Shown piece after piece: positions 14,095 to 26,301 of a DNA stretch of 64,000 nt. Every line of letters starts with the position of its first letter. The first letter of the stretch is position 1. The position numbers and the translations under genes were made by a program. The stretch is from NCBI RefSeq assembly GCF_000513895.2, contig NZ_CP165782.1, forward strand, positions 3,563,501 through 3,627,500, in the 5' to 3' direction. The notes below the pieces were generated by a model, which worked only from the letters and a program-made list of their open reading frames with translations, was not told where the DNA came from and did no database searches. Origin of the DNA: Ensifer sp. WSM1721. GTDB lineage: Bacteria; Pseudomonadota; Alphaproteobacteria; Rhizobiales; Rhizobiaceae.

Positions 14095-14227
14095 CGTCAT
14101 CCTCGGGGCTCGACCCGAGGATCCATGCACAGGCTTGAGCAACGCTCGAAAGACAGGTCCGACCGGTCGCGACAAGCATCAGCGCCGTGCTTGTGATTGG
14201 ATCCTCGGGTCAAGCCCGAGGATGACG
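14095..14227 (+). repeat. 133-bp element bounded by inverted palindromes (MITE-like)
   Basis: Two copies of a hairpin, ATCCTCGGG..CCCGAGGAT, lie at 14099-14122 and 14201-14223 in opposite orientation. They are flanked outward by CGTC on the left and GACG on the right and enclose about 78 bases with no gene. The palindromes and the bases just inside them (GGATCCATGCAC and TTGTGATTGGATCC) resemble the ends of the GIY-YIG cassette at 17103-17476. It fills the middle of the 343-base gap between rnd and the SelW-like gene. Confidence 0.75.
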
Positions 14228-16580: not shown

Positions 16581-17087
16581 ATGGCTGACGCAGCGACGAT
16601 CAATGTCCGTCCGGCACGGGTCGAGGACGTGCCGGCGCTCTGCGCTTTCCTGAACGAGATCATACGGATCGGCGGCACCACGGCCCATGAAACGCCGTTC
16701 ACGCATGAGAGCTTCGCCTCCCACTTCCTTGCGGGCCCCGGTTTCGTCAGTTGCTTCGTTGCGGAGGATGATTCGGGCGAGCCCTGCGCCTTCCAGGCGC
16801 TCGAGCGCTGGGACGGTCTTCCGGAGGGCTGGGTGGATATCGGCACCTTCGCCCGTGCTCATGAGAAGGTTCCCGGTGCCGGGACCGCGCTTTTCGCCGC
16901 CACGAAGGCGCAAGCCCGCGACGCAGGCTTCCTGGCGATCAACGCCACGATCCGCGCCGACAATATCGGCGGTTTGGCCTATTACAGCAAGATGGGCTTC
17001 GTCGACTACAAGATCGACAAGGGGGTGCCGCTGAAAGATGGCCGCCTCATCGATCGGATTTCGAAACGGTATTTGCTTGGGGGCTAG
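16581..17087 (+). CDS. GNAT acetyltransferase, phosphinothricin-acetyltransferase-like
   Basis: A 168-residue GNAT protein. The N-terminus INVRPARVEDVPALCAFLNEI and the segment GWVDIGTFARAHEKVPGAGTALF fit the fold, although the acetyl-CoA loop (usually Q/RxxGxG/A) reads KVPGAGTA. The end LAYYSKMGFVDYK is typical. The substrate is unknown; relatives act on amine-containing toxins or metabolites. It starts 23 bases after the O-acetyltransferase with ribosome binding site GGGAGG, so the three genes from 15518 form an operon. Confidence 0.85.
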   Translation: MADAATINVRPARVEDVPALCAFLNEIIRIGGTTAHETPFTHESFASHFLAGPGFVSCFVAEDDSGEPCAFQALERWDGLPEGWVDIGTFARAHEKVPGAGTALFAATKAQARDAGFLAINATIRADNIGGLAYYSKMGFVDYKIDKGVPLKDGRLIDRISKRYLLGG

Positions 17088-17102
17088 CCGGCCTCTCAAT
17101 CC

Positions 17103-17476
17103 GTCATCCTCGGGCTTGACCCGAGGATCCAAGTACAAGCATCGCTCCCGAATGGTCGGCTACGTGTACATCGTAACAAATCACAAGAGGGGGGACGCTC
17201 TACATTGGCGTCACGTCGAACCTCGAGCGCCGAATCTTTGAGCATCGAGAGGGCCTCACGCCCGGTTTCGCGTCAAAATATGGATGCAACCAACTGGTCT
17301 GGTACGAGGAGCACCTGCAGATCGGCACGGCTATCCAGCGCGAGAAATCGTTGAAGCGCTGGTATCGGCGATGGAAAATCGACCTCATCGAGAAGATGAA
17401 TCCAGACTGGCGCGATCTGTATCTCGAGCTTTGGTAACCTTGTGCATGGATCCTCGGGTCAAGCCCGAGGATGACG
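17103..17476 (+). mobile_element. Palindrome-bounded GIY-YIG cassette
   Basis: A unit of about 375 bp. The left end is CGTC plus hairpin ATCCTCGGG-CTTGA-CCCGAGGAT (17106-17128). The right end is the inverted copy ATCCTCGGG-TCAAG-CCCGAGGAT (17450-17472) plus GACG. The only gene inside is the GIY-YIG nuclease at 17152. A third, decayed hairpin lies outside at 17632-17654. The gene-less 133-bp structure at 14095 has the same ends. Calling it mobile is an inference from this architecture; no target duplication was established. Confidence 0.5.
17152..17437 (+). pseudogene. GIY-YIG nuclease (UPF0213-like), frameshifted
   Basis: The ATG at 17152 opens MVGYVYIVTNHKRG, the GIY-YIG start (here GYV..YIV). 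The frame is lost at a run of six G at 17169-17174. Removing one G gives TLYIGVTSNLERRIFEHREG and then SLKRWYRRWKIDLIEKMNPD to a TAA at 17435-17437, a normal protein of about 94 residues with catalytic Tyr, Arg and Glu. So the gene carries a one-base insertion in a homopolymer. It may be a real inactivation, a phase-variable tract, or a sequencing error. The gene is enclosed by inverted palindromes. Confidence 0.85.
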
Positions 17477-17631
17477 GTGGAGGGAGGCGGCGAACTTTCA
17501 GCTACGCCGGAATATGCCGCGACGGGGCCTTGACCCGGCCGCGACACTGGTCACCCACTCGCGGGAAAGGCATTGCTGCCAAGGGTTTCACAGAACCGGC
17601 CCGGACATTTCACACAACCTTTGTACCCATC

Positions 17632-17654
17632 ATCCTTGGGCTTGATCCGAAGAT
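17632..17654. repeat. Decayed copy of the ATCCTCGGG palindrome
   Basis: ATCCTTGGGCTTGATCCGAAGAT keeps the hairpin by compensating changes relative to the copies at 17106 and 17450. It lies 35 bases downstream of the lepA stop (minus strand) and may serve as its 3' hairpin. Confidence 0.6.
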
Positions 17655-17689: not shown

Positions 17690-19516
17690 TCACTCATCCC
17701 CCATCTTCAGCGCCGCAATAAACGCCTCCTGGGGGATTTCCACCTTGCCGAACTGGCGCATGCGCTTCTTGCCTTCCTTCTGCTTTTCCAGAAGCTTGCG
17801 CTTGCGGGTGGCATCGCCGCCGTAGCACTTGGCCGTCACGTCCTTGCGCAGCGCCCGAACCGTTTCGCGGGCGATGATGCGGCCGCCAATCGCGGCCTGG
17901 ATCGGGATCTGGAACATGTGCTGCGGAATCAGGTCCTTGAGCTTCTCGCACATGGCGCGGCCGCGCTTTTCGGCCGCCGAGCGGTGGACGAGCATCGACA
18001 GCGCGTCGACCGGCTCGCCGTTGACGAGGATCGACATCTTGACGAGGTCGCTCTCGCGATAGTCGGCGAGGTGATAGTCGAAGGAGGCATAACCCTTGGA
18101 GATCGACTTCAGCCGGTCGTAGAAGTCGAAGACCACTTCGTTGAGCGGCAGGTCGTAGGTCAGCATCGCCCGGTTGCCGACATAGGTGAGCTCGGTCTGG
18201 ATGCCGCGCCGGTCCTGGCAGAGCTTCAGGATGCCGCCGAGATACTCGTCCGGCGTCATGATCGTCGCGCGGATCCAGGGCTCGCGGAATTCGGCGATTT
18301 TGACGACGTCCGGCATGTCGGCCGGGTTGTGCAGTTCCTTCTCGGTGCCGTCCGTCATCGTGAGCTGATAGACGACCGAGGGCGCGGTCGCGATCAGGTC
18401 GAGGTCGAATTCGCGCGATAGGCGCTCCTGGATGATTTCGAGATGCAGCAGCCCGAGGAAGCCGCAGCGGAAACCGAAGCCGAGGGCGGCGGAGGATTCC
18501 ATTTCGAAGGAGAAGGAGGCGTCGTTGAGGCGGAGCTTCCCCATGGCGCCGCGCAGTTCCTCGAAGTCGGCGGCGTCGACGGGGAAGAGGCCGCAGAAGA
18601 CCACCGGCTGTGCCGGCTTGAAGCCGGGGAGCGCTTCCGCCGTCGGGCGCCTGTCGTCGGTGATCGTGTCGCCGACGCGCGTGTCGGCCACTTCCTTGAT
18701 CGAGGCGGTGATGAAGCCGATCTCGCCGGGCCCGAGCGAATCCATGGCGACCATCTTCGGCGTCAGCACGCCGACACGTTCGATCGTGTATTTGGCGCCG
18801 GTGCCCATCATGCGGATGGTCTGGCCTTTGGTCAGCACGCCGTCGATAATGCGCACCAGCACCATGACGCCGAGATAGGTGTCGTACCAGCTATCGACGA
18901 GCAGCGCCTTCAAGGGCGCGCTTCCGCCGCCCGGGCTCTTCGGGGCCGGCAGCTTGTGGACGATCGCTTCGAGCACGTCCGGAATGCCGAGGCCGGTCTT
19001 CGCCGAAATCAGCACGGCGTCGGAAGCGTCGATCCCGATCACCTCCTCGATCTGCTCCTTGATCCGCTCCGGCTCGGCCGCCGGCAGGTCGATCTTGTTG
19101 AGCACGGTGACGAGCTCGTGGTTGTTGTCGATCGCCTGGTAGACGTTGGCGAGCGTCTGGGCTTCGACGCCCTGGCTGGCATCGACGACGAGCAGCGAAC
19201 CTTCGCAGGCCGAAAGCGAGCGCGAGACCTCGTAGGCGAAGTCGACGTGCCCGGGCGTATCGATGAGGTTCAAGACATAGGTCTCGCCGTCATTCGCCTT
19301 GTAGTGCAGGCGAACGGTCTGAGCCTTGATGGTGATGCCGCGCTCGCGCTCGATATCCATGCTGTCCAGCACCTGCTCGGACATCTCGCGCTCGGCAAGG
19401 CCGCCGGTGAGCTGGATCAGCCGGTCGGCGAGCGTCGATTTGCCGTGGTCGATATGGGCCACGATCGAGAAGTTGCGGATATGCGACAGGGGCGTCTTGG
19501 AAGATGGTGTGCTCAT
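17690..19516 (-). CDS. lepA: Elongation factor 4 (LepA), ribosome back-translocase
   Basis: A 608-residue translational GTPase. G1 is AHIDHGKST near residues 22-30, G2 is [11 protein letters not shown]3 is DTPGHVDF near 90, and G4 is NKID near 143. The EF-4-specific C-terminal domain is present (SYDTYLG region, then [12 protein letters not shown] and [21 protein letters not shown]). LepA aids ribosome assembly and translation under stress. ATG 19516 gives MSTPSSKTP; an extra in-frame ATG at 19525 exists. It is single on its strand next to the palindrome-rich region. Confidence 0.97.
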
Positions 19517-19574
19517 GGGCCGCATATAGCAGCGCGATCAGGCGGCGCAAAGCGCGAAATGAAGGCTTCGTTCA

Positions 19575-25488: not shown

Positions 25489-26301
25489 TCAGAAGCGATA
25501 ACGAACGAGCCGCCCCATCGGCTGCAGCATCGGGGTAGCCGCGAGGATTTGCAGGGCGATGCGCGCCGGGGGCGACATCCGCGCCGCCTCGGATGCGCTC
25601 CAGTGCGACCGGTCTTCCGCGAGCTTCAGCCCCGGCACCTGGCGCTCGAGTTCCGTCGGCTCGTCGAGCGCCCATCGAAGCGATGCGCCTGTCGAACGGA
25701 TCGCCGGGTTGAAATGCAGCATCCAGACCATGAACCGGCTATAAGCATCGAAGACGATCTCACCGGAGGGGAAGCGGTCGACGAGCCGGCTGAGAAGCTG
25801 CGGGACCTCGTGCTCGCCAAGATAAGGCAGCACGCCCTCCGCGATGATCATCGCAGGTCTGTCGGTGGGCAGTTGCGACAGCCATGTCGTTTCCGTGATC
25901 GAGGCTGCGATCGCCGTATAGTTCTCGCGACAGGGGTAGAGTCGCTGCCTGAGGGCAATCACCTCGCGAAAATCGATATCGAACCAGAGCACCGACGGCG
26001 GCGGATCGACGCGGAAGACACGGGCATCGAGTCCGCAGCCGAGATGAAGGACGGTGGCATCCGGATGCCGGTCGAGAAAAGCCGTCGTCCAGCGATCGAG
26101 CAGAAGCGCGCGCATGGCGATCGCGACCGTCATGTCGTGCCCCACCTTCAGATGCGTCAGGTCCTCGTCGACGAGGGCGATCGCGGCAGCCGCGAAGCGG
26201 TCGCAGAGCAGCGAATCCGGCATGGCGCTCTCCTCCGCCTTCGCCAGAAGCGTGATCAGCGGCGTGGCAGTGACACCGGTGAGGCGGATCTCCGATGGCA
26301 T
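25489..26301 (-). CDS. Class I SAM-dependent methyltransferase, leucine carboxyl methyltransferase-like
   Basis: A 270-residue methyltransferase of the LCMT/PpmC-like family. SAM motif I is VLHLGCGLDARVFRV near residues 84-98, the acidic ribose-binding loop is WFDIDFREVI, and motif IV is MIIAEGVLPYL. Substrates in this family range from protein carboxyl groups to polyketides; this one cannot be assigned. The ATG at 26301 follows GGAGGAAGCC. It is monocistronic. Confidence 0.85.
   Translation of the reverse strand: MPSEIRLTGVTATPLITLLAKAEESAMPDSLLCDRFAAAAIALVDEDLTHLKVGHDMTVAIAMRALLLDRWTTAFLDRHPDATVLHLGCGLDARVFRVDPPPSVLWFDIDFREVIALRQRLYPCRENYTAIAASITETTWLSQLPTDRPAMIIAEGVLPYLGEHEVPQLLSRLVDRFPSGEIVFDAYSRFMVWMLHFNPAIRSTGASLRWALDEPTELERQVPGLKLAEDRSHWSASEAARMSPPARIALQILAATPMLQPMGRLVRYRF

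Follow-up and report, generated by a model that had tools for sequence, protein, structure and literature searches.

The window analysed here, a stretch of 64,000 nucleotides from the 6.33-Mb genome of Ensifer sp. WSM1721 (G000), carries a 377-bp unit at positions 17101-17477, in which one GIY-YIG gene is bracketed by 39-nt inverted ends. It is flanked by two genes that, from their translations, we take to be lepA (17690-19525, minus strand) and, ending at 17087, a GNAT-like gene. Among named organisms, those closest to this genome at the locus are Sinorhizobium and Ensifer. The two inverted arms are 95% complementary, and each end consists of a CGTC tag, a hairpin with a 9-bp stem and a 5-nt loop (ATCCTCGGG-CTTGA-CCCGAGGAT) and a CCA tail. 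That inverted hairpins with outer CGTC and GACG bracket a single GIY-YIG gene had been claimed in an earlier note on this DNA, and we confirmed it at the hairpin coordinates given in Table 1. Both ends fold as hairpins in single-stranded DNA, with a stability that none of 200 shuffles equalled. The hairpin pattern occurs in three perfect copies in the window; allowing up to three mismatches yielded five matches against 0.08 expected, one of which, at 25526, is probably due to chance.

Table 1. Features of the unit and related hairpins in the window.
Feature	Position	Strand	Details
Left terminal inverted repeat	17101-17139	+	C followed by CGTC tag (17102-17105), hairpin 17106-17128, CCA tail, inner end ..ACAAG
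GIY-YIG nuclease gene (PF01541)	17152-17437	+	Frame-disrupted at G run 17189-17194; family-profile match C1:3580686-3580931
Right terminal inverted repeat	17439-17477	-	CGTC-tagged hairpin in opposite orientation (hairpin 17450-17472, reverse complement of the left one; GACG up to 17476)
Degenerate hairpin of the same family, downstream of the unit	17632-17654	+	Four mismatches over the 27-nt core
Left hairpin of a gene-less inverted pair (REPIN-like)	14095-14125	+	One extra loop base
Right hairpin of the same gene-less pair	14198-14227	-	

The gene runs from its ATG to a TAA at 17435-17437 and matches PF01541 with an E value of 2.5e-12 (49.7 bits, cut-off 22.6). Its frame changes at a run of six G, and this copy of the unit is probably decaying or off. 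Elsewhere in G000 PF01541 gave a single further match, within a 690-codon frame that is presumably uvrC. Four homologues of the unit protein matched PF01541 at 58-68 bits, and across 25 diverse homologues 17 columns were invariant, with the consensus VYI..NGTLYxGVT..L.RRI.EH..GF..KY..LV.YE..AI.REK.LK.W.R.WK..LIE..NP.W.DL. The enzyme is about 94 residues long, and 7999 of 8000 scored candidate clusters matched its family at E 1e-10 or better. The median dN/dS was 0.10 (55 usable of 136 pairs, with dS near saturation); at the level of codon comparison, the protein was shown to be under purifying selection. Broken gene copies were seen at six of 80 loci, three with a broken frame (L041, L049, L097) and three with internal stops (L038, L079, L083), where sequencing errors are possible. 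By sequence profile, the closest solved structures are two small UPF0213 GIY-YIG proteins (PDB 1zg2 and 1ywl; E 2e-8 and 3e-6, profile positions 2-80), but the match stops short of the conserved ..NPDWxDL end of the unit protein family, and no UPF0213 model was among the NCBIfam matches of the four homologues. The sole contrast-family locus examined (L410, UPF0213-like, 32% identity) had no hairpins.

Tagged hairpins around homologous genes

Loci encoding homologues were assembled in two ways. A protein search of species genomes, in which the flanks were ignored in the choice, supplied 80 of 111 loci (the first collection), which by their record titles span Alpha-, Gamma- and Deltaproteobacteria, Bacteroidota, Ignavibacteria, Patescibacteria, Clostridia, Nitrospinota and others; a family-profile search supplied 30 further loci from the family of the window, taken to be Rhizobiaceae. 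After two short and five duplicate loci were dropped, 103 distinct loci were tested. Outward-facing tagged hairpins were found on both sides of the gene at 44 of the 103 loci, against 0 of 1493 same-locus controls, and a tagged hairpin on at least one side at 67 loci, against 38 controls. The remaining 36 loci had a tagged hairpin on neither side by this test, and at several test-failing loci longer or imperfect tagged hairpins are visible by eye. The possibility raised in the earlier note, that most related GIY-YIG genes lack flanking palindromes, was thereby tested, and these counts speak against it. When the loci were split by hand, with the five duplicates still in and with one locus of the 'other' group (L046) belonging to the family of the window, two-sided hairpins were found at 23 of 56 and 23 of 52 loci, and at 0 of 618 and 0 of 896 controls. 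An early, stricter tag test gave 23 of 76 against 0 of 1016 for both sides, and 44 against 15 for at least one side.

An inverted-repeat test that made no use of the tag led to a similar picture. It asked for a score of at least 16 within 250 bp of both gene ends, a threshold chosen after viewing the flanks, and was passed by 49 of 79 loci of the first collection (one locus dropped for a short flank) against 1 of 967 same-locus controls, and by 18 of 29 loci of the window's family (one short; five of these 29 are also in the first collection) against 0 of 140. The arms of 45 of these 49 loci, found without the tag criterion, contain GTCA or TGAC, where 12.5 would be expected.

The gene was also found on 42 viral-classed contigs of IMG/VR (L418-L459), often with both hairpins. 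Forty of these loci were tested, of which 33 were usable after five short and two duplicate ones were dropped: 17 had tagged hairpins on both sides, 22 on at least one side and 26 inverted repeats scoring at least 16, compared with 0, 16 and 0 of 118 controls, in a set from which exact duplicates only were removed, where near-identical loci stay, and with controls nearer the gene than in the 103-locus test. The L019 protein had no match among 50,697 phage records. Ten plasmid loci were hand-picked from 45 records; those of Aeromonas, Azospirillum, Sphingobium, Neisseria, Sinorhizobium and Rhizobium passed the both-side test, and those of Planktothrix, Photobacterium, Spirosoma and Salinivibrio failed it, the Planktothrix and Spirosoma loci having imperfect tagged hairpins by eye despite failing. 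At the Planktothrix locus (plasmid p1 of P. agardhii, L405), where these hairpins lie on both sides, the gene copy has an MmeI-type restriction enzyme gene as one neighbour and drmA, part of a DISARM defence cluster, as the other.

Among 247 genomes of the window's family the gene was present in 128 and the hairpin type in 130, with both in 95, the gene only in 33, the hairpin only in 35 and neither in 84 (odds ratio 6.9, p 1e-12). Permutation within genera gave p 0.0007, and of 48 mixed genera 30 had more hairpins with the gene, 10 fewer and 8 equal numbers. Neither gene nor hairpin was found in the 12 genomes of at most 2.0 Mb. Hairpins without a gene match reach, for example, 36 copies in G004 and 49 in G097; loss of the gene would fit the 35 hairpin-only genomes, and the use of other hairpin types would fit the 33 gene-only ones. 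These data also bear on the idea that a RAYT or another transposase moves the hairpins in trans, with the GIY-YIG protein as a protective host nuclease that processes cruciforms, a role for which there is a parallel in structure-selective GIY-YIG nucleases, of which SLX1 is described as an example. However, PF01797, the RAYT domain and the only transposase family screened, had no match in G000, and its presence in 25 of the 247 genomes was not associated with hairpins (12 with, 13 without; odds ratio 0.8, p 0.68). As one would not, moreover, expect a host repair gene to be enclosed by the ends of the repeat itself at many unrelated places, we consider this idea very unlikely.

The stems of the flanking hairpins vary between lineages, as in TGTCATTCCTGCGTAGGCAGGAATC (Tenacibaculum), TGTCATTCCGGGCTTGACCCGGAATCC (Collierbacteria) and CGTCATGGCCGGGCTTGACCCGGCCATCC (an alphaproteobacterium), and their tails are mostly ATC[CT]; this list begins from GTCA, so that the search itself dictates the tag, and the arm count above serves as the check made without it. 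The pattern GTCATTCCnGCnnAGGCnGGAATC, searched with at most one mismatch, was present in all 13 searched genomes in 2-73 copies, and the reversed pattern in 0 copies. In 12 of the 13 genomes (13 of 14 loci) this GTCATTCCnGC type is no more than 300 bp away from the gene, the exception being the genome of L084 (G291), which has the type but not beside the gene. As the loci were hand-picked for such flanks, only copies elsewhere count, and these were found in 10 of the 13 genomes; in the other three (two Tenacibaculum and G286) the sole copies are apparently those at the gene. The stem in Kordia (G284) is TGC..GCA, and in Aquimarina genomes it is mostly AGC..GCT or GGC..GCC. Two part-genome samples (G301 and G296) held four hairpins of their own type each and at most one of six other types, and four of six sampled genomes had no hairpin copy in 76-116 kb. 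A count of 3 of 15 obtained with another hairpin pattern was set aside, because its spacing was wrong for L045, L072 and L087.

Copies of the unit and of its hairpins at different sites

Within G000, ATCCTCGGGnnnnnCCCGAGGAT occurs in 21 perfect copies, and the reversed pattern in none. Sixteen of the 21 form eight inverted pairs with the tags outward: seven of these measure 45-118 bp from start to start and leave no room for such a gene, and the eighth, at 344 bp, encloses the nuclease gene. The 21 perfect hairpins are all on C1, which makes up 3.69 of the 6.33 Mb. If C1 is circular, about 380 kb or less separates the nuclease gene from 10 of the 12 other hairpin sites, a clustering in which proximity to the gene is indistinguishable from proximity to the replication origin. 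The listed places of G177 show by eye no comparable clustering.

The unit was found at different sites in related genomes. It sits between the GNAT-like gene and lepA in the window and between gltA and lpxB in S. meliloti Ak57, which also carries a copy internally deleted between the hairpins (L128, read by eye), showing a possible origin of gene-less pairs. Two copies in one genome (L252 and L253 in G210) are 91.6% identical over 393 nt, from the CGTC start to 12 nt past GACG, and have unrelated flanks; within the genus of G210, the left gene at L253 is conserved and no right flank was found, and L252 lies amid other repeats. In 112 locus pairs, which are non-independent and some of them duplicated, the homology ended on the left 0-1 nt from [CT]GTCA in 33 and on the right -1 to +2 nt from TGAC[AG] in 44, the others ending elsewhere.

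Filled and empty sites were compared as well. In A. lipoferum 4B the sufB-sufC interval holds a hairpin pair, the gene and another hairpin pair. In five other Azospirillum replicons (L412, L413, L414 and L416 by annotated genes, L415 located by homology) the same interval is a short spacer that contains, by eye, neither the gene nor a CGTC hairpin; the spacer of B510 (L414) has a different palindrome. Nine hairpin sites of G000 were compared, as 400-kb stretches with highly diverged flanks, with G255 and G247. At four of them (a, b, d, g) both flanks but no hairpin were found in G247; at the other five the comparison failed or a relative carries hairpins. Of the nine, sites c and f were cleanly placed in neither relative, and for seven sites one or both flanks are missing from the G255 stretch. 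The earlier note had proposed to compare empty and filled sites among strains for precise insertion: the unit is present in A. lipoferum 4B and absent from this interval in the five Azospirillum replicons, but neither a target-site duplication nor a base-exact empty site was found among the G000, G210, S. medicae and Azospirillum sites compared. Two candidates on pSymB of Sinorhizobium medicae were rejected. At L324 the apparent insertion proved to be a decayed copy from the interior of which some strains have lost about 160 bp; one breakpoint falls in the loop of a hairpin, and there is a short shared sequence. At L320 strain WSM1115 had recombined, so that the site is not clean.

At the GNAT-lepA place itself the unit occurs in opposite orientations in related species, with L135, L143, L152, L021, L023 and L024 on one side and the window and L148 on the other; this may reflect inversion over the unit ends or repeated insertion. 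Three loci of the window's genus (L133, L138, L145) have a different cassette of about 600 bp in the unit's place. The GNAT-lepA intergenic regions of L134 and L136 contain hairpins with short tandem duplications of the loop, e.g. GGTCAAGCCC-GGTCAAGTCC, which could possibly be scars of loop cutting and repair.

Two further explanations can be weighed here. The hairpins might be ordinary terminators or mRNA stabilisers, kept for the expression of the small nuclease gene and without any mobility; they fold stably, and REPs are thought to act on transcripts, as stated in the description of the CGTC-REPs (Di Nocera 2013, PMC3733652). We regard this as highly improbable, because outward two-sided tagged hairpins were seen at none of the 1493 control positions, because the hairpins are dispersed and, at four of the nine G000 sites compared, missing from a congener that retains both flanking regions, and because copies of the unit occupy different sites, one of them in either orientation. 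The other explanation is that the GIY-YIG gene is a passenger or a homing element, which inserts beside or between existing REP hairpins spread by something else. Gene-less hairpins are indeed common, both in the hairpin-only genomes of the family and in seven of the eight perfect pairs of G000, and the gltA-lpxB interval of some relatives is either a short intergenic region or contains hairpins and no gene (L162, L164, L171). GIY-YIG domains also occur in homing endonucleases, and the four homologues matched the group I intron homing endonuclease model TIGR01453 weakly, at 20-27 bits, below its cut-off of 56. Yet in A. ramasamyi and A. oryzae the empty sufB-sufC spacer lacks, by eye, the CGTC hairpin along with the gene, the homology between copies often stops at the hairpin tags, and the presence of hairpins tracks the gene and not the tyrosine transposase, and we find a passenger or homing gene unlikely.

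A candidate enzyme for the CGTC-REPs

By its sequence, the window hairpin is a member of the CGTC-REP class (Di Nocera, De Gregorio and Rocco 2013, PMC3733652). It shares with this class a CGTC or TGTC tag, a stem of 8-9 bp that starts with AT, a loop of 4-5 nt, a CCA tail, head-to-head dimers and abundance in alphaproteobacteria. The A-T first stem positions and the CCA tail are present in both hairpins of the unit, the multi-copy nature and the frequent inverted dimers are apparent from the 21 copies in G000, 16 of them paired, and the extragenic location was checked in the window copies. The class includes dRS3 of Neisseria and RPE-4 and RPE-6 of Rickettsia, is known from all orders of the alphaproteobacteria and from five phyla, and is said by its describers to 'apparently lack a dedicated transposase' (PMC3733652). 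The unit differs from the repeats as described there in that it has a GIY-YIG gene inside the pair, where that account reports no transposase gene; the term 'GIY-YIG' has 0 occurrences in its main text. Among the matches listed from the openly licensed PubMed Central literature, we found no paper joining GIY-YIG nucleases with REP or other palindromic repeats, and the term is absent from PMC12306157 and PMC6006769.

We consider it probable that the unit is a copy of a tiny mobile element, that its nuclease is a dedicated CGTC-REP enzyme and that the gene-less pairs are its non-autonomous relatives. The association of gene and hairpins and the mobility are well supported by the comparisons of loci and genomes, and, among enzymes that might spread CGTC-REP hairpins, the GIY-YIG nuclease is the strongest candidate to date. 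The reading of the earlier note, in which the GIY-YIG protein is a RAYT analogue, gains support from the two-sided hairpins and their absence from the controls, from the sufB-sufC interval and from the ends of homology at the tag; that the nuclease drives the spread, with its catalysis and its mechanism, is what we infer. Both RAYT (TnpA-REP) REPtrons and the unit consist of a single gene flanked by inverted palindromes that are also dispersed as gene-less pairs (REPINs in the former). RAYTs, however, are Y1 HUH tyrosine transposases (PF01797) working with a GTAG tag, whereas the unit has a GIY-YIG protein (PF01541) and CGTC. We tested both enzyme family and tag, and in our judgement the unit functions in the manner of a RAYT REPtron without being one. 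With MITEs and small insertion sequences the unit has in common inverted ends, an internally deleted copy and insertion between genes; it differs in that its ends are tagged hairpins, the sole gene seen is GIY-YIG, and no target duplication was seen.

If this reading is correct, a dedicated GIY-YIG nuclease would answer the question of the missing CGTC-REP transposase, REP/enzyme systems would have arisen convergently on two unrelated folds, and each host would offer a directly testable enzyme with a defined DNA substrate. A broader claim is that units of about 0.4 kb, in which a hydrolytic GIY-YIG nuclease acts on tagged hairpin ends with no known transposase, recombinase or reverse transcriptase, are a new class of transposable element and the source of CGTC-REPs in many phyla. 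For this claim we see the balance as even; a new class of element it would be if the nuclease were shown to move the hairpins.

In the mechanism that we propose, the element is a single GIY-YIG nuclease gene with an outward-facing [CT]GTC-tagged hairpin on each side, and the nuclease would take for CGTC-REPs the role that the RAYT tyrosine transposase has for GTAG-tagged REPs. It would recognise the base of hairpins extruded on single-stranded DNA and nick them at or near the tag. At replication forks, the hairpin pair would then be freed as one (single-stranded) unit, or be copied as such; host repair or replication would finish its insertion, at C-rich sites. The last step is assigned to the host because GIY-YIG enzymes cut DNA by hydrolysis, without a covalent intermediate; with no covalent link to DNA made by the enzyme, strand joining would have to come from elsewhere, and this is the weakest part of the model. 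Across lineages the shared features are the tag, a stem base of AT pairs and an ATC[CT] tail, and the stem and loop vary, as would be expected of an enzyme that reads the hairpin base and makes lineage-specific contacts with the stem.

Further details came from 229 distinct hairpin contexts, taken at up to four substitutions from the consensus core, such that the core is fixed by the search and the free columns are informative. From -11 to -5 these contexts are rich in C (0.42-0.64) and poor in G (0.04-0.08). In many pairs this tract falls beyond the shared homology, and it may thus reflect a target preference. At the inner end there is a moderate consensus, nnCnCAAGC (0.49-0.71), and the last A of the tail, a position outside the search pattern, has a frequency of 0.90. 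The variable stem position is occupied by a Watson-Crick pair in 141 of 144 copies, with all four pair types represented, by a wobble pair in one, and is unpaired in two.
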